From Loigolactobacillus jiayinensis (GTDB taxonomy: Bacteria > Bacillota > Bacilli > Lactobacillales > Lactobacillaceae): a DNA stretch of 64,000 bases. Of this stretch, positions 25,816 through 53,064 are shown in pieces (within the stretch, counting starts at the first letter, position 1; each line of letters begins with the position of its first letter). A program made the translations under genes and the position numbers. The stretch covers positions 62,001 through 126,000 of the forward strand of contig NZ_RHOF01000001.1 of assembly GCF_003946445.1 (NCBI RefSeq). Reading direction: 5' to 3'. The notes under the pieces were generated by a model. It saw nothing but the letters and a program-made list of their open reading frames with translations, was not told where the DNA came from and made no database searches.

Positions 25816-26625
25816 ATGAAGGATTATGATTTAACTAAAACGGCAATTAAAACGTTTGACCCAGAAGTACAAGAAATCGCGCTGAGTACGGATGATCTAC
25901 ACGTTTTTTACGGTAGTAAAGAACAAATCAAAGGCGTGTCACTGCAATTTCCGCGCTATCAAATCTCTTCGATCATCGGCTCCTCTGGTTCCGGAAAATC
26001 AACTTACTTGCGCTCGTTAAACCGAATGAATGATGAAATTCAAATTGCGCGAGTTACCGGTAAAATTATGTATCGTGGGTTGGATATTAACCAGCCAAAA
26101 ATTGATGTTTTCGAAATGCGTAAACATATTGGCATGGTATTTCAGCGGCCGAACCCATTTGCCAAATCGATTTACGATAATATTACGTTTGCGCCTATCC
26201 GGCATGGTGTCAAGGATAAAAAGGTTCTAGATCAACTAGTGGAAACGACGTTACAGCAGGCGGGTTTATGGAAAGAAGTTAAGGATACACTGCATAAAAG
26301 TGCTTTGGCGCTATCTGGTGGTCAGCAGCAGCGTTTGTGTATTGCCCGCGCGATTGCCATGAAGCCGGATATTTTATTGCTAGATGAGCCAGCTAGTGCA
26401 CTAGATCCTATTTCCACCAGCGTGGTTGAAGATACCTTGGCGCAATTAAAAGCGCATTATACAATTATTATTGTGACGCATAATATGCAACAAGCGGCGC
26501 GAATCAGCGACTATACTGCCTTTTTCCATCAAGGTGTCGCGTTAGAATATGCTGAAACCAAGCGTATTTTCACCAAGCCCGCAATTCAGGCCACTGATGA
26601 TTATGTTTCGGGTCACTTTGGGTAA
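25816..26625 (+). CDS. pstB: Phosphate ABC transporter ATPase PstB (copy 1)
   Basis: This 269-residue ABC ATPase has Walker A 'GSSGSGKST', signature '[14 protein letters not shown]' and Walker B 'ILLLDEPASALD', with the PstB-specific 'LNRMND' after Walker A. It is the first of two adjacent pstB genes, a usual arrangement in lactic acid bacteria. An 80-base gap before copy 2 holds a small hairpin TCTGAA-GTG-TTCAGA (26636-26650). Confidence 0.94.
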   Translation: MKDYDLTKTAIKTFDPEVQEIALSTDDLHVFYGSKEQIKGVSLQFPRYQISSIIGSSGSGKSTYLRSLNRMNDEIQIARVTGKIMYRGLDINQPKIDVFEMRKHIGMVFQRPNPFAKSIYDNITFAPIRHGVKDKKVLDQLVETTLQQAGLWKEVKDTLHKSALALSGGQQQRLCIARAIAMKPDILLLDEPASALDPISTSVVEDTLAQLKAHYTIIIVTHNMQQAARISDYTAFFHQGVALEYAETKRIFTKPAIQATDDYVSGHFG

Positions 26626-26704
26626 GTATGGGGTGTCTGAAGTGTTCAGATAAGCACGAAGTAAAAATGATTCAGATTAAGATGTTATCCGCAGAGGGGG
26701 ACAG

Positions 26705-27469
26705 ATGATGGTAGCAGAAAAAATTATTACTAGTAAAGATGTGCACCTGTACTATGGTGAACGCGAAGCTTTAAAGGGTATTGATCTGGATTTTATGACT
26801 CATGAGATCACAGCTTTAATTGGTCCCTCTGGTTCGGGGAAATCGACTTATTTGCGCTTATTGAATCGGATGAACGATTTGATTCCTAATATTCGGATTA
26901 CCGGCGATATTCGCTTGCACGGCCAAGATATTTACGCGCCAGAGACGGATATTGTTCAATTGCGTAAAGAAGTTGGCATGGTGTTTCAGCAACCAAATCC
27001 ATTTCCCTTTTCAATCTACGAAAATGTTATCTACGGCTTACGTTTAGCTGGCGAGAAAAATAAAGCGGTATTGGATGAGGTCGTTGAAAGTAGTTTGAAG
27101 GCTGCGGCAGTTTGGGAAGAAACTAAGGATGTATTACATCAAAGTGCCTTGTCCTTATCCGGTGGTCAGCAGCAGCGCGTCTGTATTGCGCGTGTCTTAG
27201 CAGTTAAGCCAGCGGTGATTTTACTGGACGAGCCAACCAGTGCGCTGGATCCAATTTCTAGTAGCAAAATTGAGCAAATGTTGGTCAATTTAAAGGACAC
27301 TTACACCATCATTATGGTCACCCACAATATGCAACAAGCCGCGCGGGCATCGGATCGGACTGCTTTTTTCTTGGACGGCCAATTAATTGAATACAGTGAA
27401 ACGGCGAAGTTCTTCACGGCGCCGGATAAAAAAGAAAGTGAAGACTATATTTCAGGACGCTTTGGTTAG
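26705..27469 (+). CDS. pstB: Phosphate ABC transporter ATPase PstB (copy 2)
   Basis: This second PstB is 254 residues, with Walker A 'GPSGSGKST', signature '[14 protein letters not shown]' and Walker B '[11 protein letters not shown]'. It resembles copy 1 over its whole length but is clearly diverged, not a recent duplicate. AGAGGGGGA precedes the start; ATG 26708 is equally possible. Why two ATPases serve one PstCA pair is not known from the sequence. Confidence 0.94.
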
Positions 27470-28239: not shown

Positions 28240-28266
28240 GACTGCCATAATCGGCAGTCTTTTTTA
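28240..28266 (+). terminator. Intrinsic terminator after phoU
   Basis: GACTGCC-ATAATC-GGCAGTC stem-loop followed by six T. Confidence 0.85.
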
Positions 28267-28289: not shown

Positions 28290-28322
28290 TTTAAGTTGAC
28301 TTTAAGTTAGCTCCCTTAGAAT
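28290..28322 (+). promoter_or_regulatory. Promoter of operon 1 with 11-bp direct repeat
   Basis: TTTAAGTTGAC (28290-28300) is followed directly by TTTAAGTTAGC (28301-28311), then TCCCT and a -10 box TAGAAT (28317-28322). No -35 consensus exists; the repeats occupy that place. Tandem 11-bp repeats abutting a -10 are typical of activation by OmpR/PhoB-type regulators. The same layout precedes the aldehyde dehydrogenase and operon 2. Confidence 0.6.
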
Positions 28323-28371
28323 TCATTGTAATCAGTTGAGACAAGGATTAGATGATGAGGAGTGAATGTGT

Positions 28372-29190
28372 ATGCAAAGTGAATTAGAGTTACCAACTAA
28401 AGTGCATAAAGCTAAACAAACTAGAAAATTAAAGCCCCATCCCCGCGTACGTAAATTAGCGTGGCTGACTTTATCAATTACAGTAGCAATTGGTGTTTGG
28501 TGGTTACTGTCAGTACTGCCGGGCACGAAAGAAAGTTTTCCTAACCCAGTAGCGGTAGCGTCAGCGGTCGGTACTATGCTTGGTCGTGGCGTATTATTCA
28601 GCGATATTGGCTCCAGCTTATTCTCGGTGATTTGGGGTTTTGTTTTTGGCTTTATCTTCGCCTTACCGATCGCTATTTTAATGGCATGGTACAAACCATT
28701 GGAAAATATCATCGGCCCTTGGATTCAATTTATCCGTAGCATTCCGCCATTGGCTTACGTGCCGCTAGTTGTTGTTTCCGCTGGTATTGGCGCTAAAGCA
28801 CAGATCATTGTCATCTGTATTGCGACTTTCTTAGTCATGACAGTCACCATTTATCAAGGCGTGGTCAACATTGATCCAACCTTGATCAAGGCCGCACGGG
28901 TGCTCGGCGCGCGTGATCGTGATATTTTCGTCCACGTGATCGTACCCGCGGCGACACCATACATTATCACCGCCGTTCGCTTAGGCGCGACGACTGCTTT
29001 GACCACATTGATTGCGGCTGAGTCAACCGGCGCTGAAGCAGGCCTGGGTATGCGGATCCAATCATTGAGTCAAACCTTTGATATGGCACCAATGATGTTA
29101 TACATCATTATTATCGGGATCATTGGGATCACTTTAGATAAATTAATTCGGATGTTTGAAAGGAAGGTTACCAAATGGCAGGACAAATAA
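28372..29190 (+). CDS. Sulfonate/taurine/nitrate-type ABC transporter permease
   Basis: This 272-residue membrane permease belongs to the SsuC/TauC family: a Lys/Arg-rich cytoplasmic N-terminus, about six membrane spans, and the EAA loop 'AARVLGARDRDIFVHVIVPA' (about residues 172-191). ATG 28372 is preferred over ATG 28366 because AGGAG (28360 area) is then 9 bases away. It overlaps the ATPase gene and is the first gene of operon 1. The substrate is inferred to be an organosulfonate from the family and the linked catabolic genes. Confidence 0.85.
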   Translation: MQSELELPTKVHKAKQTRKLKPHPRVRKLAWLTLSITVAIGVWWLLSVLPGTKESFPNPVAVASAVGTMLGRGVLFSDIGSSLFSVIWGFVFGFIFALPIAILMAWYKPLENIIGPWIQFIRSIPPLAYVPLVVVSAGIGAKAQIIVICIATFLVMTVTIYQGVVNIDPTLIKAARVLGARDRDIFVHVIVPAATPYIITAVRLGATTALTTLIAAESTGAEAGLGMRIQSLSQTFDMAPMMLYIIIIGIIGITLDKLIRMFERKVTKWQDK

Positions 29191-29948
29191 AATTAGCGAT
29201 TGATCATGTTTCAAAAACGTATCAATCCGAACGTGGTGAAACAACCGCGATTCATGATATTAACTTAAAAATTACTGAAAATGAATTTGTAACTGTGATT
29301 GGGCCTTCTGGCTGTGGTAAATCCACCTTATTGAACATCATTGCTGGACTAGAACCAGCAACTGACGGCAAAATTATTTGTGATGGCCAACCAGTACAAG
29401 GGACTGGCAGTGAGCGGGGCGTGGTTTTTCAGCAGTACGCGTTGTTTCCTTGGTTAACGGTACGCCAGAATGTGGCATTTGGTTTGAAAATGCGTAAGGA
29501 CAAATCAGCTGCAGCGCAGGAACGGGTCAATCATTATATTGAAATCGTTGGCCTCAGTGAATTTGCGGATCGCTATCCCAAAGAATTATCTGGGGGGATG
29601 CGGCAACGTGTGGCGATTGCTCGCGCTTATGCCGCCAATCCTGCCGTCTTATTGATGGATGAACCATTTGGGGCGTTAGATGCGCAAACTCGCGGTCAGT
29701 TACAGGAAGAATTATTACAGACATGGGAAAAAGAGCAGAAAACCTGTTTCTTCATTACCCATGATGTGGATGAAGCTATTTTATTGGGGCAGAAGATTGT
29801 GATCATGAATGCCCATCCTGGCACCGTCAAAGAAGTGGTGGCTGTTGACCTAGACTATCCGCGTAATCAGGAAACACGTTTAAGTGAAGCCTTTCTCGCC
29901 ATAAAAAAGCACGTCTGGGCGCAAGTTTATAGCAGCGCAGGCGTTTAA
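29175..29948 (+). CDS. Sulfonate/taurine/nitrate-type ABC transporter ATPase
   Basis: This 257-residue ATPase has Walker A 'GPSGCGKST' (about 43-51), signature 'LSGGMRQRVAIARA' and Walker B 'LLMDEPFGALD'. It is closest to SsuB/TauB/NrtD type energisers. The start lies inside the end of the permease gene, indicating coupling. Confidence 0.88.
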   Translation: MAGQIKLAIDHVSKTYQSERGETTAIHDINLKITENEFVTVIGPSGCGKSTLLNIIAGLEPATDGKIICDGQPVQGTGSERGVVFQQYALFPWLTVRQNVAFGLKMRKDKSAAAQERVNHYIEIVGLSEFADRYPKELSGGMRQRVAIARAYAANPAVLLMDEPFGALDAQTRGQLQEELLQTWEKEQKTCFFITHDVDEAILLGQKIVIMNAHPGTVKEVVAVDLDYPRNQETRLSEAFLAIKKHVWAQVYSSAGV

Positions 29949-29966
29949 TTAAAAGGAGCTGAAAAA

Positions 29967-30992
29967 ATGAAAAAGAAACTTTGGGGGTTAATTGCCCTTT
30001 TGTCACTGTTTATGATGTTATTCGCCTCATTTGGTAATAGTTCTAGTACCCAGGCCGCCAGCAAGACTGAAACCATTAAAATTGGTTATATGGGTTCAGT
30101 TAATAGCGTTGGCCTGGCCGCGATTGCCAAGCAGGCGGGCTATTATGAAAAGCAAGGCTTGAAGGTCAAATTAGTTGAGTTCGCCGATGGGCCATCAGTT
30201 ATTGCCGCTATGAAATCCGGCAGTATTGATATTGGTGAAATTGGTCCCGGTGCGCACACGCAGGTTGCACAAGGTAACGCCAAAATCGTTATGTTTGACG
30301 GTCTGAGCACCTCTGATAAAATCATTGCCAATAAAAAATCAGGCATTAGCTCAATCAAAGATTTAAAAGGCAAGAAAGTGGCGGTTGTTGTCGGGACGAC
30401 TAGTCAAGTTATTTTAGATGCTGCGCTGAAAAAGGCGGGCATGACTGAAAGTGACGTTAAAGTTGTCAGTATGAGTGTGAACTCGATCGTCAACGCAATG
30501 GTTTCTGGCAAAATTGATGCCGCCGCAACTTGGGCACCAGGCACAACTAAAATCAAAGAAAAATTAGGCAAAAATGCGGTTACGTTAGCCACTGATAATG
30601 ATTTTACTGATTCAATGCCATTTACTTGTTCATGGATCGTTACCCCAAGTTACGCTAAGAAACACAAAGCAACGATCTTGAAATTTGATAAAGCAATGTT
30701 ACAAGCAATGAACTATCGTGAAAGTGGCGGTAAGAATGCAGCTAAATGGATCGCGAAACAATTAGGCTTTAGTGAAAGCGACGTTAAGAAGCAGATCACT
30801 AGCACTGAAAAGATCTACACGTCGAAGCAGTTGGTTAAGCTAATTAATAACGGCAACTTGCTACAGTATTATACCAAGCAACAAAAGAACTTCATCAAGC
30901 TGGGTATTTTAAAGGATACCGGTAAGTTGGAAACAGCTAAAGATTACGTGATGACCGATATGATCAAGAAAGCAGCAGCGGCGATTGAATAA
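29967..30992 (+). CDS. SsuA/TauA-like substrate-binding protein
   Basis: This 341-residue binding protein of the NMT1/SsuA-like family ('IKIGYMGSVNSVGLA', 'KSGSIDIGEIGPGAHTQVA', 'AATWAPGT') presents the ligand to the transporter encoded just upstream. The N-terminus is a signal peptide ending near AQA-ASK with no lipobox cysteine. That is unusual for a Gram-positive binding protein, which is normally lipid-anchored. The protein could stay as an uncleaved anchor or be released. The ligand is unknown; a sulfonate is the family expectation. Confidence 0.85.
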   Translation: MKKKLWGLIALLSLFMMLFASFGNSSSTQAASKTETIKIGYMGSVNSVGLAAIAKQAGYYEKQGLKVKLVEFADGPSVIAAMKSGSIDIGEIGPGAHTQVAQGNAKIVMFDGLSTSDKIIANKKSGISSIKDLKGKKVAVVVGTTSQVILDAALKKAGMTESDVKVVSMSVNSIVNAMVSGKIDAAATWAPGTTKIKEKLGKNAVTLATDNDFTDSMPFTCSWIVTPSYAKKHKATILKFDKAMLQAMNYRESGGKNAAKWIAKQLGFSESDVKKQITSTEKIYTSKQLVKLINNGNLLQYYTKQQKNFIKLGILKDTGKLETAKDYVMTDMIKKAAAAIE

Positions 30993-31018
30993 CTAAATTC
31001 AATTTAGATGATTTGATG

Positions 31019-31054
31019 AGGAGCTGCGGCAAAGCAATTTTTGTCACAGCTCCT
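31019..31054 (+). promoter_or_regulatory. Hairpin between transport and catabolic genes of operon 1
   Basis: AGGAGCTG (31019-31026) pairs with CAGCTCCT (31047-31054) around a 20-base loop, followed by only TTTC. The U-tract is too poor for a good terminator, so it may cause partial termination or protect the upstream mRNA. Confidence 0.4.
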
Positions 31055-31096
31055 TTCAATTAAATTAAAACTTAAAACAATGAGGAGCAATCAATT

Positions 31097-32461
31097 ATGG
31101 CTAATTTATTATATATTCCGGTTGAACGGCGTTTATTTGATGCCGCAGCAGCAGACCAGATTTACGACGAAATGTTGATGGTGCTGGCACCTTATCACGC
31201 AACGGTTCCAGCACATAATTTAGGCACACCTGAGGAAATGGGTGACTATCTAACCAGTGTTAATCAGCAAGATTTTGCTGGTATCATTTTCCACAATACG
31301 TCGTTTACCGGTGCCGAATTTATTGAACAAATTGCTGATCGTTTTCCCAGCACACCAATCTTGTTGGTGGCGTCGCGGGCACCTAGTATTGGTGGCTGGC
31401 TGCGCTTAAATGGTGGCACTGGCTTGATCAGTACCGCTAACAGTCTGATGCGGCGCCAGCATGCCTATAGTTACATCTATGGTGATCCAAATGAAGCGGC
31501 CGTCCAAACCGCCATCAAGAATTTTAGTCAGGCCGTGACTTTGAAAGCTAAATTAGCTAAGCTTAAAATCGGCGTGGTTGGTACTTATCCGTTAGGCTTT
31601 GCCTTTGCCGGTGTTGACGAAGCCGCCTTGCAGGAAACGTTCGGTACCAAGTTATTACATTACGAGGTTGATACAGCATTTGCTGACGCGACGGCGCTAC
31701 CGGAGACTGATTATCAAGTTGAACTGGATTATGCGCAAGCCCATATGCGGCATCTTGATCCTGAACTACCAGAAACCATTAAATACGTTAAATTTGTAAC
31801 TTTAATGCACCAATGGCAACAACGTGATGGTTTTAAGGCGTTGGCGTCACGGTGTTGGCCAGACTTTTTCGATAAGTATGCGGCCGCACCTGGCGCTGTC
31901 TGGTCACAGCTTTGTGACGAAGGGCTGCCCACTGCAATGGAATGCGATATACACGGCGCTTTAGCCATGTATATTTTGCAACAAATGCAATCCAGCGATG
32001 CGCCAGTCTACATGGGCGATATTTCTAGCTTTGACACCAGCGATAACACGATTTCCGTGTGGCATGATTATGGGCCATTTGCCATGGCTAATCCTAAATA
32101 TGGCGTTGAAACCAGCGTCCATCCTAATCGGAAAATGCCAGTTAGTCCTCAATTTGTACTCAAACCAGGTCGCGTGACGTTATTACGCGTGCACGTTAAC
32201 GCTGCTGGTAAGTATGAACTGGTTGCGCTAAGTGGTGCTGCCCAGGACGCACCAGCTCAATTTGATGGTGTTTCTGGCCGAATTAAATTAGATGCTCCGG
32301 TAGAACATGTTTTCGATGATATTGTCAGCCACGGTTATGAACAACATTATGCGCTGATCTATGGCGATTTTGCCGCAGAAATTAAAACGTTAGGCGCATT
32401 GCTGCAGTTACCAACGCATATTTATCAGGAGGTGGCTTATGACACTAGTGACCGCAAGTGA
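31097..32461 (+). CDS. L-fucose/L-arabinose isomerase-like protein
   Basis: This 454-residue protein has the fold and length of the fucose-isomerase-related group (COG2407-like). An N-terminal Rossmann-like part (about 1-190) is followed by a metal-site region 'PTAMECDIHGALAMYIL' (Glu near residue 282), which corresponds to the ECD/EVD-x2-GA motif of FucI and AraA, and a C-terminal domain with 'HDYGPFAMANP'. Family members convert aldoses to ketoses with a divalent metal. Beside an organosulfonate-type importer, aldolase, Pfk-like kinase and aldehyde dehydrogenase, it may isomerise a sulfonated or other modified sugar. GAGGAG precedes the ATG. The substrate is not proven. Confidence 0.7.
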   Translation: MANLLYIPVERRLFDAAAADQIYDEMLMVLAPYHATVPAHNLGTPEEMGDYLTSVNQQDFAGIIFHNTSFTGAEFIEQIADRFPSTPILLVASRAPSIGGWLRLNGGTGLISTANSLMRRQHAYSYIYGDPNEAAVQTAIKNFSQAVTLKAKLAKLKIGVVGTYPLGFAFAGVDEAALQETFGTKLLHYEVDTAFADATALPETDYQVELDYAQAHMRHLDPELPETIKYVKFVTLMHQWQQRDGFKALASRCWPDFFDKYAAAPGAVWSQLCDEGLPTAMECDIHGALAMYILQQMQSSDAPVYMGDISSFDTSDNTISVWHDYGPFAMANPKYGVETSVHPNRKMPVSPQFVLKPGRVTLLRVHVNAAGKYELVALSGAAQDAPAQFDGVSGRIKLDAPVEHVFDDIVSHGYEQHYALIYGDFAAEIKTLGALLQLPTHIYQEVAYDTSDRK

Positions 32462-33302
32462 GCTGACTAAGGCTGCACAACAAGCCCAGTACGCAGTGGG
32501 TGCCTTCAACGTGACGAGTATCGCCATGGCGCGCGGTGTTGTCGCTGCCGCTGAAGCACAACGCTCGCCAGTGATTCTGCAAATTGGTGAAAAGCAACTC
32601 ACCAATTACGTGCCATTGGACTTAATTGGCCCCGTGATGTTACAGCTGGCCCACACCGCTAGCGTGCCAGTTGCTGTTCATTTAGATCATGGCTTCAGTT
32701 ATGACGTGATCATGCAGGCACTAAAAATTGGCTTTAGCTCGGTAATGATCGATGCCTCGCAAGCTGATTTTACGGCAAATGTGGCCCAGACGCGAGCTGT
32801 TGTTCAAGCGGCGCACGCACTAGGCGTGTCGGTGGAGGCGGAACTTGGCCCGATGAACCGCGAAGGTGGTGGTGTTGCAGTTGATTACAGTCAATTGGCA
32901 CACACCTACACTGATCCTAAAGAAGCTGAACGCTTTGTCACCCAAACTAACGTGGACATGCTAGCCGTCGCGTATGGCACCGTTCATGGCGTATATTCGC
33001 AGACGCCGCATTTAAGTTTTGAACGGTTACAGCAAATCAAACAGTTAGTCGCGCTCCCTTTGGTGGTTCACGGGGGCTCTGGGCTGGCTGATGATGATTA
33101 TCAACGTTCAATTGACAATGGTATTTGTAAAATTAATTATTACTCAACGCTTGCCTATCATGTGGCTAACGCAGTTAAGCAACGATTACAACAGACCACA
33201 GAACAGACTTTTATTTCCGATGTTGATCAATGGACACAGCAACTAGTTCAAAATGAAGTCGCAGCTAAGCTCAAGGTTTTTGGCTCAGCTGGTCAGATAT
33301 AA
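32439..33302 (+). CDS. Class II fructose-bisphosphate/tagatose-bisphosphate-type aldolase
   Basis: This 287-residue zinc aldolase has 'HLDHG' at residues 81-85 (D83 catalytic, H84 zinc), 'EAELG' near 133, 'HGGSG' near 206 and the phosphate-binding 'KINYYS'. It cleaves ketose 1-phosphates or bisphosphates to dihydroxyacetone phosphate and an aldehyde. It overlaps the isomerase gene by 23 bases and shares its mRNA. It is probably not the housekeeping glycolytic aldolase, since it sits in a sugar-specific operon; cleavage of a phosphorylated sulfo-ketose is an inference. Confidence 0.88.
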   Translation: MTLVTASELTKAAQQAQYAVGAFNVTSIAMARGVVAAAEAQRSPVILQIGEKQLTNYVPLDLIGPVMLQLAHTASVPVAVHLDHGFSYDVIMQALKIGFSSVMIDASQADFTANVAQTRAVVQAAHALGVSVEAELGPMNREGGGVAVDYSQLAHTYTDPKEAERFVTQTNVDMLAVAYGTVHGVYSQTPHLSFERLQQIKQLVALPLVVHGGSGLADDDYQRSIDNGICKINYYSTLAYHVANAVKQRLQQTTEQTFISDVDQWTQQLVQNEVAAKLKVFGSAGQI

Positions 33303-33305
33303 AGC

Positions 33306-33343
33306 AATACCGTGAAGAAAAATAAACTTCACGGTATTTTTTT
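33306..33343 (+). terminator. Intrinsic terminator of operon 1
   Basis: AATACCGTGAAG and CTTCACGGTATT form a perfect 12-bp stem, then seven T. Confidence 0.9.
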
Positions 33344-33349
33344 GTTCAC

Positions 33350-33377
33350 AAAAATAGTCGCCCTTAGGTGGACGACT
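33350..33377 (-). terminator. Intrinsic terminator after the Pfk-like gene
   Basis: Read on the - strand, AGTCG-T-CC pairs with GG-G-CGACT and is followed by ATTTTTG. Confidence 0.6.
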
Positions 33378-33388
33378 AAACTTAATGC

Positions 33389-34537
33389 TTAATTGAAATT
33401 AACGATTTCCGGTAACGGCGTATCGGCTAAGCGTGGGCCTAGCCAGTTGCGATAGTCGGTGGTGATGCCGTTGCCAGCGGCGTTAATGTAGTGGGCAGGC
33501 AATACGCGCGTTTGCTGGGCGACAGCAGCTAGTGGCAGTAATTCGTAGTGTGTTTTGGCATTGTGATCTGTCAGCAGGCCGACTAGCTGATCGGTTTGCT
33601 CATCAAGTACAGCGGCAACGGCCATTCTGCCAGCGGCAATTGCTTCAGTACGATCGCGCTTAGTTTGGGCGGCAATACTTGCGCGACCAGCTAAACCAGG
33701 CTTTTCATTACGTGCTTTGAGGCCTAATTGTTTAGTGACTTGTTCCGCTAAATAACTACCAACCTCACCAAAATAAACAGCACGACCAGCTTTAAAACGA
33801 GTAGGAACAATTGATTGACCAGCAGCATTCTTTAAGCCTTCTGCCACGACGACGATGGCCGACCCTTTCTGTGCATAAACAGCTTGGACGTCATGAAGAA
33901 ATTGTGTTTCGTCAAAGGCGTGTTCGGGTACGTAAATTAAGTCTGGTGCTAATCGTTCGGTCGGCTTAGCAGCTAAAGCGGCGGCAGCAGTTAGCCAGCC
34001 AGCGTTGCGCCCCATTAATTCGATAATACAAACATGGATCGGTAAGCTGGCCACATCAGCCGCAATTTCGCGTACTGTTTGGCGAATATAATTAGCGGCA
34101 CTAAGAAATCCCGGTGCATGATCAATGCCACCGAGATCGTTGTCGATAGTTTTCGGGATGCCTAGCACACTAATGCCAGTGGGGCGACAAGCTGTGGCTA
34201 ACTTGTGAGCGGTGGTCATGGTGCCATTACCGCCGCTCATTAGTACAAAATCAATTTGATTTTGCTGCAGTATTTTGACTAAGTGTGGATAATCTTGTTG
34301 TTGCAGTGGTGTCCGCGATGAACCAATCGCGGTGCCAGGTGAGTGAAGTAAGGCGGCAATTTCCACATCGCTACGCTCGGATAAGGGGATGAAATCTTCA
34401 CCAAGTAAACCGGCGATCCCGTTACGGGCGCCAAGCACTTCTAAATGTTGTGCTTGGCCGGCTTTGATCACGCCGTATAAGGAGCTATTTAAAACAGCGG
34501 TGGGGCCGCCACCGTGAATGACTAATAATCGTTGCAT
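33389..34537 (-). CDS. PfkA-family phosphofructokinase-like sugar kinase
   Basis: This 382-residue protein is of the phosphofructokinase family: 'GGGPTAVLN' (9-17), 'SGGNGTM', 'GIPKTIDNDLGG' and 'ELMGRNAGWL'. It has Gly in the GGNGT loop, as in ATP-dependent enzymes, but Lys in PKTIDND, as in PPi-dependent and group III enzymes, so the phosphate donor cannot be assigned. It is not the canonical glycolytic PfkA of lactobacilli, which is about 320 residues with PGTIDND. Located behind the aldehyde dehydrogenase (46-base gap) and facing the aldolase operon, it may phosphorylate the ketose made by the neighbouring isomerase. AAAGGAA precedes the ATG. Confidence 0.82.
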   Translation of the reverse strand: MQRLLVIHGGGPTAVLNSSLYGVIKAGQAQHLEVLGARNGIAGLLGEDFIPLSERSDVEIAALLHSPGTAIGSSRTPLQQQDYPHLVKILQQNQIDFVLMSGGNGTMTTAHKLATACRPTGISVLGIPKTIDNDLGGIDHAPGFLSAANYIRQTVREIAADVASLPIHVCIIELMGRNAGWLTAAAALAAKPTERLAPDLIYVPEHAFDETQFLHDVQAVYAQKGSAIVVVAEGLKNAAGQSIVPTRFKAGRAVYFGEVGSYLAEQVTKQLGLKARNEKPGLAGRASIAAQTKRDRTEAIAAGRMAVAAVLDEQTDQLVGLLTDHNAKTHYELLPLAAVAQQTRVLPAHYINAAGNGITTDYRNWLGPRLADTPLPEIVNFN

Positions 34538-34583
34538 GTTGTGGGTTCCTTTCTGCTGAGACTGGCAATGCGTTTAGTACGCA

Positions 34584-35960
34584 CTAATCTGCGATAACTT
34601 TCTGATTAGCAAATTCAAATAGGGCCTGTTCACTCATTTCACGTCCATAACCGGAGTTTTTAATGCCACCGAAAGGCAATTCGGGCTGGGCAACAGCTTG
34701 TTGATTGATGAAAACTTGGCCAGTTTCGATGTGTGCTGCGACTGCTTGGGCGTGGGCACTTTCACCAAAGACGGTACCAGCCAGACCAAATTGCGATTGA
34801 TTAGCTAGAGCAATGGCGGCTTCGTCGGAATCGACCACATGGATCTGACCAACAGGACCAAATAATTCTTCGTCAAAAATTGGATTGTCCGGCGTGATGT
34901 TACCCAATAAAACAGGCTTAAAGAAATAACCTGTTTGCTCGGTTACACTACCGCCAGCTACTAGGACTTCGGCGCCAGCACTAATTGCCTGATCGACTTG
35001 TTCTTGAATGCGCTGTTGGACTGCGGCTGAAGCTAAAGGCGCCAAGGTAGTGTTTGGCTCACGTGGGTCACCGATTTTTTGTGCTGCAAAGGCCGCTTTA
35101 ACTGCCGCTGTAAAGGCCGGGGCTACTGCTTGGACAACGATGAAGCGTTTCGCCGACACGCAAACTTGGCCGGCGTTTCGTAGGCGTGAGCCAACTGCCG
35201 CTGCGGCTGCCGCTGGCACATCCGCATCAGCTAAAACAACAAATGCATCGTTGCCGCCGAGTTCCAACGTTGATTTAGTTAGCGCTTGGGCCGCTTCACT
35301 AGCAACGGCGCGGCCAGCACGGACAGAGCCAGTTAAGGCAACACCTTGCACGCGTGAATCAGCAATGACAGTGGCAGCTTGTTCATTAGTCAAAAATAAG
35401 TTTTGCAACGCTGCAGACTCAATATCAGCTGCTTGAACCATTTCGGCAAATAATAACGCACAATCAGCGACGCTGGGTGCATGTTTAAGAATGATTGGAT
35501 TGCCTAAAATAAAGTTCGGTGCAAATACGCGCATGACTTGCGTATACGGGAAATTCCACGGTTCGATCGTCAATACGATACCAGTAGGCGCGTAACTGAT
35601 TTGTGCTTGACCGCTACCTTGATATTGACGAACACGAGGTTGTAGCGCTTCAGCACCATGTTTGGCGTAATAATTGGCTACGCCGATGCTGCCATTGACC
35701 TCACCATGACTTTCACGTAACAACTTACCCATATTTGCTGTAGCTGTGGCTGCTAAGCGCTTTTCATTTTGCTTAAAAATGGTTGCTAAACGTTGTAACT
35801 GTTTAGTTCGTTTTTGCACGCCGGCAAAGCCTTGTTGGCGCGTAGCTTGATAATAGGCGTGACCAGTTGTTAAAGCTTTCTCAATAGTTGCTGGTGTCGC
35901 CGTTTGATAGGTGGCACTGATTTTTTCTGTATAAGGGTTGATAACTTGATAATTTACCAT
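34584..35960 (-). CDS. NAD(P)-dependent aldehyde dehydrogenase (GabD/succinate-semialdehyde type)
   Basis: This 458-residue enzyme has the ALDH hallmarks: 'EPWNFPYTQ' (133-141), general base E233 in 'LELGGNDAF', and catalytic C267 in 'NAGQVCVSAKRF'. It is closest in pattern to succinate-semialdehyde dehydrogenases, a group that also includes sulfolactaldehyde dehydrogenases. It oxidises an aldehyde to a carboxylate. As first gene of an operon with the Pfk-like kinase, sharing a promoter type with operon 1, it may oxidise the aldehyde released by the aldolase. GGAGG precedes the ATG. Confidence 0.88.
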   Translation of the reverse strand: MVNYQVINPYTEKISATYQTATPATIEKALTTGHAYYQATRQQGFAGVQKRTKQLQRLATIFKQNEKRLAATATANMGKLLRESHGEVNGSIGVANYYAKHGAEALQPRVRQYQGSGQAQISYAPTGIVLTIEPWNFPYTQVMRVFAPNFILGNPIILKHAPSVADCALLFAEMVQAADIESAALQNLFLTNEQAATVIADSRVQGVALTGSVRAGRAVASEAAQALTKSTLELGGNDAFVVLADADVPAAAAAAVGSRLRNAGQVCVSAKRFIVVQAVAPAFTAAVKAAFAAQKIGDPREPNTTLAPLASAAVQQRIQEQVDQAISAGAEVLVAGGSVTEQTGYFFKPVLLGNITPDNPIFDEELFGPVGQIHVVDSDEAAIALANQSQFGLAGTVFGESAHAQAVAAHIETGQVFINQQAVAQPELPFGGIKNSGYGREMSEQALFEFANQKVIAD

Positions 35961-35991: not shown

Positions 35992-36024
35992 AGTATAACG
36001 AGGCAACCTAAAGATAACCTTAAA
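35992..36024 (-). promoter_or_regulatory. Promoter of the aldehyde dehydrogenase-kinase operon with direct repeat
   Basis: On the - strand TTAAGGTT and TTTAGGTT start 11 bases apart (complements at 36016-36023 and 36005-36012), followed by a -10 TATACT (35992-35997). The arrangement mirrors the promoters of operon 1 and operon 2, with more divergence in the repeats. Confidence 0.5.
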
Positions 36025-36150: not shown

Positions 36151-36183
36151 TTTAAGTTCGGTTTAAGCTTGTCTGGGTATGCT
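36151..36183 (+). promoter_or_regulatory. Promoter of operon 2 with 11-bp direct repeat
   Basis: TTTAAGTTCGG (36151-36161) is followed directly by TTTAAGCTTGT (36162-36172), CTGGG and a -10 TATGCT (36178-36183). The distance from the second repeat to the -10 is 16 bases, the same as in operon 1. Confidence 0.6.
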
Positions 36184-36216: not shown

Positions 36217-37029
36217 ATGGAGAATGTAGCGGAACTTGGGGCAACGACAAACCACCACCGCTTGCGCTTTGCTTGGCAAAAATTGTTACCGTGGTTGATC
36301 CCCATCGCTATCATTGGTTTCTGGCAACTTGCGGTTAATATGAACTGGATCAGTAGTAGTTTATTACCAGCGCCGTTGGCTGTTGTTCAGGACGGTATTG
36401 CGTTGTGGCAAACTGGAGAATTACCCAAGAATATAAGCATCAGTCTTTATCGGGCCACTGCTGGTTTCATACTTGGTGGTAGTATCGGTTTTATTTTAGG
36501 CTTGCTCAATGGCTTGTCGCAAACAGCGCGGGCCTTATTTGATTCTTCCATTCAAATGTTGCGGAATATTCCGCATTTGTCTTTGATTCCAGTGGTGATC
36601 ATTGCTTTAGGCATTGGTGAAACTGCTAAGATTTCACTAGTCACGGTAGGGGTTATGTTTCCAATCTATATCAATACGTTCCACGGTATTACTAGTATTG
36701 ATCCTGAATTGTTAGAAATGGGCCACGCGTATGGTTTATCCAAGCGGGCATTGTTGACAAAAATTATTTTTCCGGGCGCACTACCCACGATTCTGGTTGG
36801 TGTTCGCTACGCATTAGGCGTGATGTGGACCACTTTGATCGTGGCCGAAACGATTTCTTCCAGTTCCGGTATCGGCTACATGGCCACCAATGCACAAGAG
36901 TTTATGAATATGGATACGGTGTTGTTGTGTATTGTGATCTATGCCTTATTAGGTAAGTTATCCGATTTAATTGCCAAAGCGCTGGAAAGTATTTGCTTAG
37001 CGTGGCAAAAAGAAGGGAGCGTCAAGTAA
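36217..37029 (+). CDS. Aliphatic sulfonate-type ABC transporter permease (SsuC-like)
   Basis: This 270-residue permease of the SsuC family has a long hydrophilic N-terminus, about six spans and the EAA loop 'EMGHAYGLSKRALLTKIIFPGA' region (about 168-188). TGGAGATGAACGTTA precedes ATG 36217. Its stop overlaps the ATPase start (TAATG). The SsuA-like binding protein of the same operon supports sulfonate transport. Confidence 0.87.
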   Translation: MENVAELGATTNHHRLRFAWQKLLPWLIPIAIIGFWQLAVNMNWISSSLLPAPLAVVQDGIALWQTGELPKNISISLYRATAGFILGGSIGFILGLLNGLSQTARALFDSSIQMLRNIPHLSLIPVVIIALGIGETAKISLVTVGVMFPIYINTFHGITSIDPELLEMGHAYGLSKRALLTKIIFPGALPTILVGVRYALGVMWTTLIVAETISSSSGIGYMATNAQEFMNMDTVLLCIVIYALLGKLSDLIAKALESICLAWQKEGSVK

Positions 37030-37745
37030 TGCTTAAGCCGTTATTAACTTTAGAACAAGTTGGCAAAATCTATGGTGGAAAAGTTGCGTTGCATGACGTT
37101 AACTTCGCTATTTATCCAGGTGAGTTTATTGCGTTGGTGGGAATGAGTGGCGGCGGCAAGAGTACGATTCTACGCTTGATCGCACAACTTGAAGCACCTA
37201 CAGCCGGTGACATTAAATTTGCTGATCCTAATACCACGGTACGAGTGATGTTTCAAAATGATCGCTTGTTGCCGTGGATGACCAACTTAGAAAATGTATC
37301 CTTTAAAAGTAAAAATAAAACCCAGCAGCAGCGCGCTAAGGAAATGTTAAGTGAAGTTGGATTGGCTGATTTTGCTGACAGCTATCCTGGCCAACTATCT
37401 GGTGGTCAAAAACAGCGCTTGGCGTTGGCGCGTGCTTTAATGGCGCAACCACAATTATTGCTGCTAGATGAACCATTAGGCGCCTTAGATGCCTTAACCA
37501 GACGTAAAATGCAAACCTTTATCGCAGACATTTGTGCCAAACAACACTTAACGACGTTGTTGATCACACATGATGTGGATGAAGCAGCACGGATGGCTGA
37601 TCGCGTGATCGTCGTTAAAGATGGCACTAATGTGTACGAGGCCGATGGTGCTAAAAATCAAGATACTGCAACTATCGCTACAGTATCGGAACGAATTCTA
37701 AACGTTATTTTACATGCACCAGCTACAGCAGCTGGGGTGCATTAG
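37029..37745 (+). CDS. Aliphatic sulfonate-type ABC transporter ATPase (SsuB-like)
   Basis: This 238-residue ATPase has Walker A 'GMSGGGKST', signature 'LSGGQKQRLALARA' and Walker B 'LLLLDEPLGALD', as in SsuB. ATG 37029 overlaps the permease stop and is preferred over an upstream start inside the permease gene. It is followed after 10 bases by an unrelated membrane acyltransferase, which splits this transporter from its binding protein. Confidence 0.88.
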   Translation: MLKPLLTLEQVGKIYGGKVALHDVNFAIYPGEFIALVGMSGGGKSTILRLIAQLEAPTAGDIKFADPNTTVRVMFQNDRLLPWMTNLENVSFKSKNKTQQQRAKEMLSEVGLADFADSYPGQLSGGQKQRLALARALMAQPQLLLLDEPLGALDALTRRKMQTFIADICAKQHLTTLLITHDVDEAARMADRVIVVKDGTNVYEADGAKNQDTATIATVSERILNVILHAPATAAGVH

Positions 37746-37755
37746 GGGAGTGAGG

Positions 37756-39000
37756 ATGCTGACAGAAGAAAAAACAACAGTTAAGAAAAAGCGACCATAC
37801 CTTTATGAAGTCGATCTCATGCGGATCTTCTTTATTTTCGGAGTCTTACTCAATCATACAACGACAACATTTGCCCAGCAGATGGTAGCGACTAGTGGTT
37901 GGCCGCATGTTTTGTTAAACAGTACGCATTTAATGATTCATTTTACGCGAATGGGTTTTATGTTCATGACTGGTTTGGTTCTGACCTTAAATTATTATCG
38001 GCGCGATAATTGGCCGAGTTTCTTCAAAAAACGGTTCGCTGGTTCTGGCTGGCCTTACCTTTTATGGAATTTAGTGTTAATGACTTTTGCCGTGATCGTT
38101 GGTATCGGCGGTTTTTCATGGTCAAACTTTGGTAGCACGTATCTAGATGCCATTTTACATGGTGATCAGTTCTATATGTACTATATTTTAGTAACATTGC
38201 AGCTATATTTGCTGTTTCCACTGATCGTTAAGTTATTTAAACGACTGCCTAAAGCGCACAATCGCATCTTACTGATCAGTTTCTTGCTTCAGTTAGGGTT
38301 AATGGTTGCTATCAAATATGGCTTACCACATGTGGATCATAGTAATTGGTTATGGTGGTTCCGTTCCTATGGTGTCAATGTGTTCACGTACCAATTTTAC
38401 TTTATCTTTGGTGCCTACACATCGCTACATTATCAGGCGGTTAACGACTTTATTCAGCAGCATATCAAGCCAATTGCCGCCGTTACGCTAACGTTAGGCG
38501 TTGGGACCGTTGTTTACTACGCTTGGAATCGAAACTGGCTCGGCTTGTCGCATACCGCTGCCGTGTCACCGCATCAACCGTACATGCTAATTTATGACAC
38601 CTTAATGATTATTTTTGTTTTCTGGATCGGTAAATGTTACAGCTATTGGCGTCAACATGGTGTTTGGACTTGGTTTGAAAAGTTTGTCCGCAATGGAGCA
38701 AAGGTTTCATTTGGGATCTATCTTGATCAAACAATCGGCTTGACCCTTTTAAGTGGGTTGCTGAGTTTGATCAGCGTGCCAGATTGGGCCTTACTTCTAT
38801 TGATTCCAGTAGGTTATATTTTCGTGGTTGCCGTTTCCTTTGGGATTGCGTGGTTCTGTTATCGCATACCACCATTTGGAATCATGATCGGTCGGCCGCA
38901 AGTGCATTTGTTTAAGAAGAAAGGAATGGTGCTTCATGACCACACTAACAAAGAAACTATCACAACAACTAAAAAACAATATGAACGAACCACTGATTAA
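37756..39000 (+). CDS. Membrane acyltransferase, family 3 (AT3)
   Basis: This 414-residue protein has about ten membrane spans and the AT3 N-terminal signature 'YEVDLMRIFFIFGVLLNHT', whose His is thought to be catalytic. Family members acylate sugars, cell-wall or lipid substrates at the membrane. ATG 37756 follows GGGGAGTGAG. It lies between the SsuB-like ATPase and an acyl-CoA-ligase-like gene, with which it overlaps by 65 bases. This suggests that a transported or membrane compound is acylated using an acyl donor made by the next gene. The substrate is unknown. Confidence 0.82.
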   Translation: MLTEEKTTVKKKRPYLYEVDLMRIFFIFGVLLNHTTTTFAQQMVATSGWPHVLLNSTHLMIHFTRMGFMFMTGLVLTLNYYRRDNWPSFFKKRFAGSGWPYLLWNLVLMTFAVIVGIGGFSWSNFGSTYLDAILHGDQFYMYYILVTLQLYLLFPLIVKLFKRLPKAHNRILLISFLLQLGLMVAIKYGLPHVDHSNWLWWFRSYGVNVFTYQFYFIFGAYTSLHYQAVNDFIQQHIKPIAAVTLTLGVGTVVYYAWNRNWLGLSHTAAVSPHQPYMLIYDTLMIIFVFWIGKCYSYWRQHGVWTWFEKFVRNGAKVSFGIYLDQTIGLTLLSGLLSLISVPDWALLLLIPVGYIFVVAVSFGIAWFCYRIPPFGIMIGRPQVHLFKKKGMVLHDHTNKETITTTKKQYERTTD

Positions 39001-40468
39001 AGATGAAAACTTGGCCACTTGGTTTACTGGCTTAGATTTACAAGATGACGTTTACCGGTTACGCGATGCTTTTGTTGCCAACAAACTTGGTTATGGCGAT
39101 CAGATTTTAGTTTGTCTGCCTAATTCTGCCGTTTTTCCAGTAATTAATCAGGCAGCTTGGAATTTAGGCATTATTGTGCACCCAATCTCACCAACAACCC
39201 CAATCGCTGAATTACGGGCAGATTGGCAAGAACGCCACTATGCCGGTATTTTATTGGCACCAACATTGGCCACAGCGCTTTCTGGTGCACCATTTATGGC
39301 CACACAGCTACAGTTACACACCGTGGCTGAGTTACCGTTCTTGGTTGACCGTGAACAAACCGCTGGGCGTGTGGTTGCTAGTACGCGTTTACCCCAAGAA
39401 GACGACTTGGCACTGATTTTAAACACATCGGGGACCACTGGTAAGCCCAAACGTGTTGGCTTAACGCACGCAATGTTGGTCAGCGCCGCCGAAAATGATG
39501 TCCGCAGTAATCACATGACGGCAGATGACGTTGCGATGATCACCATGCCGATGTTCCATATTAATGCCCAAGTGATGTCCACATTATCAACACGCTTGGC
39601 TGGTGGTAAAATTTTAGTGACGCCAAAATTCAGTGCCAGCAAGTTTTGGCAACAAGTTAAGGATAATGGCGTGACGTGGGTTTCCGTTGTGCCAACAATT
39701 ATCACTTTCTTATTATTAAATGACAACGCCAACCGTGTTTATCAGGAAAATGCAGCGGATATTCATTTGCGCTATGTTCGTTCATCGTCGTTTGCCTTAC
39801 CAGAAGATAAATTACGGGCGTTTCAGGATAACTTTAATACGCTAGTGATCGAAGGCTACGGTATGACCGAAGCCGCCAGTCAATGCACAATCAATCCATT
39901 TGATGCACCGAAAATCGGTTCCGCGGGGAAAGCCTTTGGCACCGATTTGAAAATTTTAGTCGATGGCGTGCTTAGTGACGAGCCTAACGTACTTGGCGAA
40001 ATTGTGGTCAAAGGCGATCATGTGATCACCCAATACATGGATCCAAACCCTGATTCATTTAAGCATGGTTGGTTCCTTACTGGCGACCTCGGTTATTTAG
40101 ACGAAGATGGTTACTTATTCGTCAAAGGTCGGAGCAAAGAAATCATTAGTCGCGGCGGTGAAAAGGTGGCGCCAGCGGCTGTTGAGAATGTCCTAAATGA
40201 ATTAGACTTTATCGAGCAGTTATCAGTTATTGGCATGCCTGATGAGCTCTACGGTGAAGAAGTCACAGCGGTGGTCATTAGTACCACGCCTGGTCTCGAT
40301 GAAGCAGCGCAACGCCAAGCAATTTTCGATTACGCCCAAGACCATTTAGCCAAATATGAATCACCAACGCGTGTCGAATTTGTCCGTGAATTTCCGCGCA
40401 ATATGACCGGTAAAGTCTTACGACCACAGTTACGTGAACAATTATTAACGGCAGGTGTCACTAGATGA
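38936..40468 (+). CDS. AMP-forming acyl-CoA synthetase-like ligase
   Basis: This 510-residue member of the ANL superfamily has the P-loop 'LNTSGTTGKPKR', 'EGYGMTEAA', 'TGDLGYLDEDGYLFVKGR' hinge and the C-terminal catalytic Lys in 'PRNMTGKVLR'. It activates a carboxylic acid to the acyl-AMP, then usually to the CoA thioester. The pattern is nearest to oxalate- or medium-chain acyl-CoA ligases, but the substrate cannot be read from the sequence. AAGGA lies 10 bases before ATG 38936; ATG 38981 is another option. It overlaps the acyltransferase gene and, by four bases, the binding-protein gene. Confidence 0.87.
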   Translation: MTTLTKKLSQQLKNNMNEPLIKDENLATWFTGLDLQDDVYRLRDAFVANKLGYGDQILVCLPNSAVFPVINQAAWNLGIIVHPISPTTPIAELRADWQERHYAGILLAPTLATALSGAPFMATQLQLHTVAELPFLVDREQTAGRVVASTRLPQEDDLALILNTSGTTGKPKRVGLTHAMLVSAAENDVRSNHMTADDVAMITMPMFHINAQVMSTLSTRLAGGKILVTPKFSASKFWQQVKDNGVTWVSVVPTIITFLLLNDNANRVYQENAADIHLRYVRSSSFALPEDKLRAFQDNFNTLVIEGYGMTEAASQCTINPFDAPKIGSAGKAFGTDLKILVDGVLSDEPNVLGEIVVKGDHVITQYMDPNPDSFKHGWFLTGDLGYLDEDGYLFVKGRSKEIISRGGEKVAPAAVENVLNELDFIEQLSVIGMPDELYGEEVTAVVISTTPGLDEAAQRQAIFDYAQDHLAKYESPTRVEFVREFPRNMTGKVLRPQLREQLLTAGVTR

Positions 40469-41427
40469 AAAAGCATAAATGGCAGTTGGGGTTATTGGTT
40501 GTCGCGCTAATCGCGTGGCTGGGGATTGCTTTTTACGGCTATTTACAAACTGATTCTAGTAGCAGCAGCCTAACCACAGTGACTATCGGCTATCAAAAAG
40601 CAGATCCTGTGGACATTTCGCGGCAACGGGGTGAACTTGCCAAGAAGATGAAGGCAAAAGGCTATAAAGTTGTCTTTAAAGAATTTTCCGATGGGACGGC
40701 CTTAACGACTGCGTTGAAAGCCGGCGATATCGATTACGCCCGCTTCGGCGATACGCCACCGGTTACCGCCCAAGCAAATGGTATGAATTTAGTGTACATT
40801 GCTGCAGGATCCTCTAAGGAAAATGGTTCTGGTATCTTGGTTAAAAAGAATTCAAGCATTAAAAGTTTGAAGGATTTAAAAGGTAAACGAATCGCTTATA
40901 CTAAAGGAACCTCCGCTCAATTTCTGATTATTCAAGCCTTGAAAAAAGCTGGCTTGACCACGGATGACGTTACATTGGTCAACATGGATCAATCGGCCTC
41001 TAGTGTTGCATTTGCCAAAGGGAAAGTTGATGCGTGGGTGACTTGGGATCCTTATACCGCCACTGCTGAGGTAGAACAAAACGCTAAGCTGTTAGTTGAT
41101 GGCACTGGTTTATCGAAAAACCGTGATTTTGTGATATCAACTAGTAAGTACGCCAAAGCACATACTGCTGTCAGCAAGTATCTTGTTTCGTATTTGTCTG
41201 ACGACATGCAGTGGGCGTCGACGCACCAAAGTAAGCTGATCACCATGATGAGTAAGACGCTGCACTTGTCTAAAGCAGTCATCAAACTGCAAGTCAGCCG
41301 CCGCAGCTTCTCAATGGGCAAAGTGACTGCTGCTATCGTTAAGGAACAGCAAAAAATTGCCGATGTGTTCTATCAAGATGGTGTGATCACGAAGCAAATT
41401 AAAATCAAGGATGCTTTAATTAAATAA
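40465..41427 (+). CDS. SsuA-like aliphatic sulfonate-binding protein
   Basis: This 320-residue protein strongly resembles SsuA: 'VTIGYQK', 'RQRGELAKKMKAKGYKVVFK'-type start split at residues 54-73, 'YARFGDTPPVTAQANG', and 'VDAWVTWDPYTATAE'. It should bind an aliphatic sulfonate for the SsuC/SsuB-like pair at the head of the operon. The N-terminus has one hydrophobic helix (about 8-25) but no lipobox cysteine, so it is probably a membrane-anchored or secreted protein, not a lipoprotein. It is the last gene of operon 2. Confidence 0.88.
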   Translation: MKKHKWQLGLLVVALIAWLGIAFYGYLQTDSSSSSLTTVTIGYQKADPVDISRQRGELAKKMKAKGYKVVFKEFSDGTALTTALKAGDIDYARFGDTPPVTAQANGMNLVYIAAGSSKENGSGILVKKNSSIKSLKDLKGKRIAYTKGTSAQFLIIQALKKAGLTTDDVTLVNMDQSASSVAFAKGKVDAWVTWDPYTATAEVEQNAKLLVDGTGLSKNRDFVISTSKYAKAHTAVSKYLVSYLSDDMQWASTHQSKLITMMSKTLHLSKAVIKLQVSRRSFSMGKVTAAIVKEQQKIADVFYQDGVITKQIKIKDALIK

Positions 41428-51983: not shown

Positions 51984-52283
51984 ATGATGAATTCAAGTAT
52001 TGCGGTTCAAGTTTTACCTTTAAATGTGGATACACAAAAAACAGTGGCTATTGTTGATGCGGTGATCGCTTATATTCAAACCACTGGCGTCAGTTATCAG
52101 GTGAGTGCGTTTGAAACGACCTTAGAAGGGGATTATGACCAGCTAATGACTGTGGTCAAACAAATTCCTTTAGTGGCAGCTAAAGCAGGGGCAACGGCTG
52201 ATATGATCTATTTAAAAATTAATTATCAAGCTCAAGGTGAGGTTTTAACGATTGCAGAAAAAACAGATAAATATCAAGATTAA
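51984..52283 (+). CDS. Thiamine-binding family protein (DUF77/MTH1187, YqgV-like)
   Basis: This 99-residue ferredoxin-like protein ('IAVQVLPLN', 'YQVSAFETTLEGDYDQLMTVV') belongs to the Thiamine_BP family, which binds thiamine or its hydroxymethylpyrimidine part. It is the first gene after the TPP riboswitch and overlaps the permease gene by 32 bases. AAGGAGGAA precedes the double ATG; either codon could start it. Confidence 0.9.
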   Translation: MMNSSIAVQVLPLNVDTQKTVAIVDAVIAYIQTTGVSYQVSAFETTLEGDYDQLMTVVKQIPLVAAKAGATADMIYLKINYQAQGEVLTIAEKTDKYQD

Positions 52284-53025: not shown

Positions 53026-53064
53026 GATTAGCTTAGCATTAATTACAAAATGAAGGAGTACAAA

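Follow-up and report, generated by a model that had tools for sequence, protein, structure and literature searches.

A probable sulfosugar catabolic locus with CiaR-like promoter boxes in Loigolactobacillus jiayinensis

We have analyzed a stretch of 64,000 nucleotides from Loigolactobacillus jiayinensis (the window; contig NZ_RHOF01000001.1, positions 62,001 to 126,000), in which genes for an ABC importer and four sugar enzymes directly follow phoU of the pst operon. Judged from its sequence, this module probably forms the heart of a regulon by which Loigolactobacillus degrades sulfosugars, with a trunk of the sulfo-EMP2 type, a promoter box like that of the streptococcal regulator CiaR, and perhaps additional entry points for other 6-sulfo sugars. 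Sulfoquinovose (SQ), a sugar of plant leaves, is most likely the substrate. The sequence itself shows the gene content, the nesting in trees, the common boxes, the gene rows of relatives and the changed phosphate loops; the substrate, the regulator, the order of evolutionary events and every reaction with its direction we infer as follows. The SsuABC-type importer would take up a C6-sulfonated hexose, most likely SQ; a SqvD-like isomerase would convert it to 6-deoxy-6-sulfofructose, a PF00365 kinase would phosphorylate carbon 1 of the sulfofructose, and a class II aldolase would cleave the 1-phosphate to dihydroxyacetone phosphate, which would enter glycolysis, and sulfolactaldehyde (SLA). An aldehyde dehydrogenase (ALDH) would then oxidise SLA to sulfolactate with a gain of NAD(P)H. 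Transcription would be driven by a CiaR-like response regulator via TTAAG-type 11-bp repeats, and a second binding protein with NagA/NagB-like and phosphoglucose isomerase (PGI)-like proteins may feed further 6-sulfo sugars into the trunk. The features of the locus, in window coordinates, are:

28240..28259, + strand: terminator-like hairpin 3' of phoU, dividing the pst operon from the module (consensus scan)
28291..28308, + strand: CiaR-like box (11-bp direct repeat), promoter of the importer-isomerase-aldolase operon (pattern; conserved in L010 and L160)
28366..29190, + strand: ABC permease of SaoP/TauC/SsuC type (Pfam PF00528, BPD_transp_1; NCBIfam SaoP 126, TauC 116 and SsuC 87 bits, all below cut-off)
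29175..29948, + strand: ABC ATPase of SaoA/nitrate/taurine type (ABC_tran; below equivalog cut-offs among the matches listed)
29967..30992, + strand: SsuA/TauA-like substrate-binding protein, proposed sulfosugar binder (NMT1; TIGR01728, SsuA_fam, 158.6 bits, cut-off 163.5)
31097..32461, + strand: SqvD/SftI-like isomerase, proposed to convert SQ to sulfofructose (NF048012, 366 bits, E 2.3e-109, cut-off 700)
32439..33302, + strand: class II aldolase, proposed sulfofructose-1-phosphate aldolase, SqiA-like role (PF01116, F_bP_aldolase)
33389..34537, - strand: PF00365 kinase (PFK), proposed sulfofructose 1-kinase, SqiK-like role (PRK14072, 363 bits, cut-off 273)
34584..35960, - strand: ALDH, proposed SLA dehydrogenase of SlaB/GabD type (Aldedh; arginine pair kept)
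36006..36023, - strand: CiaR-like box, promoter of the ALDH-PFK operon (pattern)
36152..36169, + strand: CiaR-like box, promoter of the adjoining SsuC2 operon (pattern)

All seven open reading frames (ORFs) of the proposed unit were confirmed, five on the + strand and the facing pair on the - strand, where ALDH comes first and PFK second. Pfam and NCBIfam matches bear out the genes and families claimed in the original prediction (importer, isomerase, aldolase, kinase and ALDH). The permease probably starts at the second ATG (28372), which fits the sequence of Loigolactobacillus binensis better than 28366, and the isomerase and aldolase ORFs overlap by 23 bases. The unit is conserved in L. binensis at 73-88% identity. 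The terminator consensus scan of the window found 16 sites versus 16.6 expected in shuffles and is weak evidence alone.

In the sulfo-EMP2 pathway, the FucI-family isomerase SqvD, the PF00365 kinase SqiK and the PF01116 aldolase SqiA are followed by oxidation of SLA by SlaB or by its reduction (excerpts of PMC9594981 and PMC12890257). The sulfo-EMP2 systems of Bacillus urumqiensis and Megamonas rupellensis (SqvD-SqiK-SqiA with SlaB or YihU) resemble the module in the four enzyme families, in the order of reactions and in having a SqvB homologue, here preceded by the promoter box. The window differs in that its kinase and aldolase branch apart from the pair in L072, a clear sulfo-EMP2 cluster with SqvB, GH31, YihU-like and GPH genes; in lacking a sulfoquinovosidase; in an unlinked SqvB; in the SsuABC-type importer and the CiaR-like box; and in its host family, Lactobacillaceae. 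The locus had been predicted to represent another solution to sulfoglycolysis. Its protein families do differ from those of the sulfo-EMP proteins YihSTUV (YihS, the PfkB-type YihV and the class I YihT), but the enzyme set is already known as sulfo-EMP2 and, because the two agree family by family, is not new in outline. The sulfo-TAL/SFT clusters of Lactobacillaceae share with the module the kinship of isomerase and ALDH and, in 8 of 18 cases, the box, whereas their GPH importer and sulfoquinovosidase are absent from the window locus. The SqvA transaldolase (PF00923) is likewise absent from the window locus and from L022 and L023, no genome-wide search having been made for it.

The kinship of the isomerase and ALDH with enzymes of SQ clusters carries much of this argument. 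A scan of named genomes with the isomerase alignment yielded 26 loci, of which the 20 from Lactobacillaceae were annotated by BLAST against reference proteins and six distant ones (L042-L047) were left out. One locus has the window arrangement (L022, L. binensis) and one has isomerase and class II aldolase (L023, Lacticaseibacillus kribbianus). All 18 remaining loci contain transaldolase, GPH importer and ALDH genes, with GH31 in 16 and SqvB in 12. The reference SqvB and transaldolase, both from L011, belong to PF16161 and PF00923, and the L011 GH31 protein matches six solved sulfoquinovosidase-type sequences, YihQ among them, with E values of 1e-208 to 1e-264 (next family 1e-44); we take all six structures to be sulfoquinovosidases. 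These transaldolase-type clusters (L024-L041) are found in Paucilactobacillus, Secundilactobacillus, Levilactobacillus (including L. brevis), Ligilactobacillus and Liquorilactobacillus, and several genera of lactobacilli may use SQ. In S. paracollinoides and S. similis (L031, L035, L041) the GH31 and GPH genes are spread over several ORFs, and L035 and L041 have a short or split isomerase; either decay or sequencing error could account for this. Within Loigolactobacillus itself, G004 has a transaldolase-type cluster with a candidate YihU-like reductase instead (L012), and the genus may hold two types of sulfoglycolysis.

Trees were built by a quick search with SH-aLRT supports only, the isomerase tree from 42 rows with two short ones omitted. 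The isomerase of the window falls inside a set of 15 rows (SH-aLRT 98), in which all other members save those of L. binensis and L. kribbianus belong to transaldolase-type clusters. The window ALDH nests among ALDHs of SQ clusters as sister (100) to those of Lacticaseibacillus. Identity to enzymes of the sulfo-transaldolase clusters is 40-58% for the isomerase and 48-60% for the ALDH. Two arginines have been proposed to bind the sulfonate in RlGabD (PMC10599462, in part). This RlGabD-type pair is kept in 24 of 25 ALDH rows (23 different sequences), L083 lacking it. Because arginines of this kind occur in succinic semialdehyde dehydrogenases too, the pair is a sign of an acidic aldehyde and not of a sulfonate alone. 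Among 19 isomerase loci of the phylum besides our own, some cut by contig ends, BLAST found PFK with class II aldolase in five and transaldolase in two. Matches at E 0.001 occur in 6 of 60 relatives, two of them only 22% identical; the isomerase was not found in viral contigs, and plasmid matches were below 33%. The predicted structure of the isomerase is of good quality (pLDDT 89.9), and its matches are L-arabinose and L-fucose isomerases. The module was probably assembled from an SQ transaldolase ancestor: within Lactobacillaceae, isomerase and ALDH would have been retained while kinase and aldolase replaced the transaldolase and the ABC importer replaced the GPH importer.

The kinase has the motifs GGNG and PKTIDND, as in L072. 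It lacks the ATP-PFK arginine at the HER position, which has little weight because other PPi-PFK-like rows lack it too. The aldolase keeps the HLDH, AELG, VHG and VHGGSG motifs, and two of its three best PDB matches, 8q57 (the best) and 8q58, are titled KbaY and ketose-bisphosphate aldolase; presumably both are SqiA structures. Further PFK and aldolase genes are present elsewhere in the genome. As for uptake, the top seven Foldseek matches of the binding protein are SsuA or TauA chains, its predicted model being weak (pLDDT 67). Compared with the alkanesulfonate importers SsuABC and TauABC, the window importer is alike in the family of all three subunits and in the fold of the binding protein; it differs in scores below equivalog cut-offs, in a Met for Gln replacement discussed below, and in its linkage to sugar enzymes.

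The second line of evidence is the promoter box. The strict pattern TTDAGNT-N4-TTDAGNT occurs three times in the 64-kb window, compared to a mean of 0.17 and a highest count of 2 in 100 approximate dinucleotide shuffles, which agrees with the suggestion that the facing operons share a promoter type. Genome-wide, there are 27 strict boxes versus 8 reversed-pattern controls, and 26 versus 5 in L. binensis; 3 of the 27 and 9 of the 26 look like copies of one repeat (TTxAGATCTATTTTAGCT) and were judged not to be promoters. The streptococcal CiaR box is given as NTTAAG-N5-TTTAAG in an excerpt of PMC3091779. The window boxes match this consensus, the repeat NTTAAG-N5-TTTAAG lying over the -35 position with a -10 element downstream. 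In both this genome and that of L. binensis a box precedes a two-component system operon, whose response regulator has the recognition helix VVEVYMSNLRKKL versus VVEVYVSKVRKKL in CiaR (10 of 13 letters identical); none of the 25 NCBIfam models among the matches listed for this regulator reaches its cut-off. A CiaR-like regulator may act through these boxes. The likeness to the streptococcal CiaRH regulon lies in the box, the recognition helix and the box before the regulator's own operon; the members here include sulfosugar genes, unlike in streptococci, and the regulator is identified by sequence alone.

Boxes were also found upstream of both divergent genes on C52, namely the second binding protein (54%) and the NagB-like/NagA-like side, and upstream of a PGI-like gene on C103, likewise in L. 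binensis. The genome has one SqvB homologue (227 bits, on another contig, C41), whose box scores 17.2 with a ten-site matrix and 13.1 with a six-site matrix. The ten-site matrix was made from Loigolactobacillus sites, none of them from SQ clusters, and its 99% level is 11.7 (222 background upstream regions). Eight of the 18 named transaldolase-type loci exceed this level ahead of their first gene (L027, L030, L031 and L035 of Secundilactobacillus; L036, L037, L038 and L040 of Levilactobacillus); L040 was scored after the first 18, and close relatives (L030/L031; L036/L038/L040) do not contribute independent sites. L041 and L039 are borderline, as is L012 at a hand-chosen start. Among 53 upstream regions of the window, the module promoters scored 25.6, 24.9 and 18.1, all being training sites, and the next 9.7. 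A box null of 193 regions (95% at 15.9) was set aside, since it was partly built from stretches fetched for boxes. Pho control was considered, as the module follows pst-phoU and its repeats resemble a PhoP box, and was rejected: the pstS promoter has TTTACA repeats versus the TTAAG repeats of the module. A search allowing up to 2 mismatches found no cre sites close to the window operons. Two species also have a box in front of similar stretches (L135, 3350, + strand; L145, 4366, + strand); no protein is evident shortly downstream, and a CiaR-type small RNA is possible there. Overall, the sulfoglycolysis-like logic of the original prediction gained support from the place of the isomerase and ALDH among SQ enzymes of Lactobacillaceae, from the box in 8 of 18 SQ-type clusters and from the boxed SqvB homologue.

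Possible further entries into the trunk come from a second gene set, here called module B. In two Lacticaseibacillus genomes (L089 of L. kribbianus and L102 of G1032) a row of genes encodes a binding protein of the module's family, NagB-like protein, NagA, PfkB/LacC-like kinase, the importer's permease and ATPase, PGI-like protein and ALDH, followed by the AMP-ligase cluster. The L089 NagA scores 269 bits against TIGR00221 (cut-off 226); the kinase ORF is short in L089 (228 aa) and full length in L102 (317 aa). This row, together with the scattered boxed homologues in Loigolactobacillus, is strong sequence evidence for one function, and the substrate may therefore not be SQ alone. Compared with the PGI structure 3ff1, presumably from S. 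aureus, the PGI-like protein keeps the catalytic-region stretches ESEGK, DLHS and PGVEAYK while AKNFATLEP replaces SKSGTTTEP. The NagB-like protein has lost two residues in the PTGGTP loop, with GIGLSGHIAFNEP or GIGITGHIAFNEP where the reference has GVGNDGHIAFNEP, and the NagA-like protein keeps HREPG. The altered loops of the PGI-like and NagB-like proteins correspond to loops that presumably bind phosphate in the ordinary enzymes, and the group on C6 is likely other than phosphate, either a sulfonate or a sulfate ester. A tentative extension, which we hold with less than even confidence, is that Lactobacillaceae have a branched 6-sulfo-sugar glycolysis, in which NagA-, NagB- and PGI-like enzymes, their phosphate pockets remodelled, would channel N-acetylhexosamine and hexose bearing a 6-sulfonate or 6-O-sulfate into the sulfofructose kinase-aldolase-dehydrogenase trunk used for SQ, with SsuA-type binders and, in Loigolactobacillus, a CiaR-like switch. 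On C52 a TnpB-type gene directly follows the NagA-like gene (L100, 11295-12599).

Several observations weigh against a sulfo-EMP2-type regulon. Neither a sulfoquinovosidase nor a sulfolactate exporter is encoded at the locus. That no sulfoquinovosidase is visible had been noted in the original prediction, and the sole GH31 protein of the genome has 29% identity over 220 residues to a sulfoquinovosidase. SqvB is unlinked to the module and its box fails the strict pattern. By matrix, 8 of the 18 SQ-type loci have no box and two have a weak one, and the strict pattern stands at the start of only two clusters (L027, L035). The window isomerase (366 bits) is below the NF048012 cut-off of 700, which no genome passed among 398 of the phylum or 395 of the order and which the L072 isomerase (462 bits) also fails. 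The isomerase is rare: at 1e-50 it occurs, our own genome included, in 20 of 398 phylum genomes and 3 of 395 order genomes. The ALDH tree rests on a single distant outgroup row. In trees that carry a long-branch warning, the window kinase has its own deep branch and is not sister to the L072 kinase, and the window aldolase is on a branch apart from those of L072, L068, L070 and L074; since the two are not sisters of the L072 pair, this suggests that kinase and aldolase were separately recruited. In the alignment, the module's binding proteins have Met opposite the Gln that contacts the sulfonate in TauA and is conserved in SsuA (PMC6906117, in part). The importer had been thought to be cotranscribed with the isomerase and aldolase; a terminator-like hairpin, also found in L. 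binensis, lies within the 104 bases between binding protein and isomerase. It was read by eye and is not listed by the consensus scan, and + strand cotranscription across it is plausible from the sequence. A third Loigolactobacillus (G003) retains at the same site the permease, a stop-interrupted ATPase, the aldolase and the kinase, with no binding protein or isomerase there and no isomerase elsewhere in its genome, which may mean either that other feeders can supply the trunk or that it is decaying. Module B promoters of Lacticaseibacillus have TTCACA repeats in place of the TTAAG box. G1032 has module B and no close class II aldolase (best 37%), and L. kribbianus has no PfkA-type kinase beyond a housekeeping-like one of 31%.

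Four other explanations were considered. The substrate could be a sulfate ester such as GlcNAc-6-sulfate or a hexose-6-sulfate, the sulfate being kept to the end and yielding glyceraldehyde-3-sulfate and then a sulfated glycerate. We regard this as unlikely, although the NagA/NagB-like genes share with the module the box, the binding-protein family and, in Lacticaseibacillus, the gene row, and although both the Met in the binding proteins and the altered phosphate loops would suit it; the isomerase and ALDH group with enzymes of SQ clusters, and boxes also precede SQ-type clusters with GH31. Alternatively, the importer could be an unrelated sulfur-scavenging system in a shared operon, with the substrate of the enzymes entering otherwise. 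The hairpin that splits binding protein from isomerase and the second SsuABC set next door agree with this; it is nevertheless a rather poor prospect, because a binding-protein homologue, 67-68% identical, is divergent to the isomerase-aldolase genes of L. kribbianus and because two Lacticaseibacillus genomes have the permease and ATPase in one gene row together with the genes for NagA/B-like and PGI-like proteins and ALDH. It is very improbable that the module provides a second complement of glycolytic and amino-sugar enzymes, induced by stress, for ordinary 6-phosphosugars delivered by the ABC importer. All its enzymes (NagA, NagB, PGI, PFK, class II aldolase and ALDH) have ordinary 6-phosphosugar or triose counterparts, and the box is that of the CiaRH system, but the replaced PGI motif, the shortened and changed PTGGTP loop of the NagB-like protein, the SqvD-like isomerase and the other PFK and aldolase genes of the genome all argue otherwise. 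Finally, it is hardly credible that the substrate is a neutral 6-deoxy sugar, resembling quinovose or fucose, whose breakdown ends with the oxidation of lactaldehyde: the L-arabinose/L-fucose isomerase fold and a lactaldehyde dehydrogenase model among the ALDH matches speak for it, the SsuA-type binding protein, the SqvD clade and the SLA-dehydrogenase-type arginine pair against it.

The sulfosugar module is adjoined by a second cluster, which shares its box in the window:

36217..37029, + strand: SsuC-like permease (NCBIfam SsuC, 304 bits, cut-off 347)
36993..37745, + strand: SsuB-like ATPase (ABC_tran; homologues in the L089, L102-L104 and L161 region)
37714..39000, + strand: membrane acyltransferase (Acyl_transf_3)
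38936..40468, + strand: AMP-forming acid-CoA ligase family protein (family search)
40465..41427, + strand: SsuA-family binding protein, SsuA2 (TIGR01728, 213 bits, cut-off 163.5)

Loci with this cluster of SsuABC2, acyltransferase and ligase (36217-41427 in the window) or with homologues of its genes are L089 (10551-18249), L161, L028, L033, L034, L103 and L104, and homologues of the ligase or acyltransferase lie beside some SQ transaldolase-type clusters. It is conceivable that the cluster makes a lipid or acyl modification linked to sulfonates. SsuA2 keeps Gln at the sulfonate-contact position. Yet another importer set of NMT1 type, the third (52252-54840: permease, binding protein with NMT1 at 215 bits, and ATPase) is perhaps for uptake of a thiamine precursor. 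The pst operon contains two PstB-like ATPase genes in tandem (25816-27469), the first recognised by 56% likeness. Beside SqvB, on the opposite strand, are GH3, alpha-L-rhamnosidase and GH43 genes (L020, 875-7618), a cluster of plant-glycan type that does not help with the role of SqvB. A box-bearing Gfo/Idh/MocA protein (L140) was considered as a GH188-type sulfoquinovosidase and rejected, as it matched generic oxidoreductases only.

Sulfoglycolysis has been reported for a relative in the wider order, Enterococcus gilvus (PMC10599462, in part). The literature searched for sulfoquinovose with lactobacilli, SsuA and Loigolactobacillus gave, among the matches listed, no description of sulfosugar use by Lactobacillaceae or of this system. 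No literature was found on amino-sulfosugars of the sulfoquinovosamine type, and nothing relevant, among the matches listed, on GlcNAc-6-sulfate catabolism or a PGI-type SQ isomerase; PMC5902678, in the part available, names phosphoglucose isomerase only in comparison. If true, a set of the sulfo-EMP2 type whose kinase and aldolase were recruited separately would add another case of convergent sulfoglycolysis in Gram-positive bacteria, and control of sulfosugar genes by a CiaR-type system would be unexpected. The link to NagA-, NagB- and PGI-like proteins predicts catabolism of C6-sulfonated or C6-sulfated amino sugars with no prior loss of the sulfur group. Such use of amino-sulfosugars, if true, would matter for glycan turnover in the gut and for fermented plant foods.

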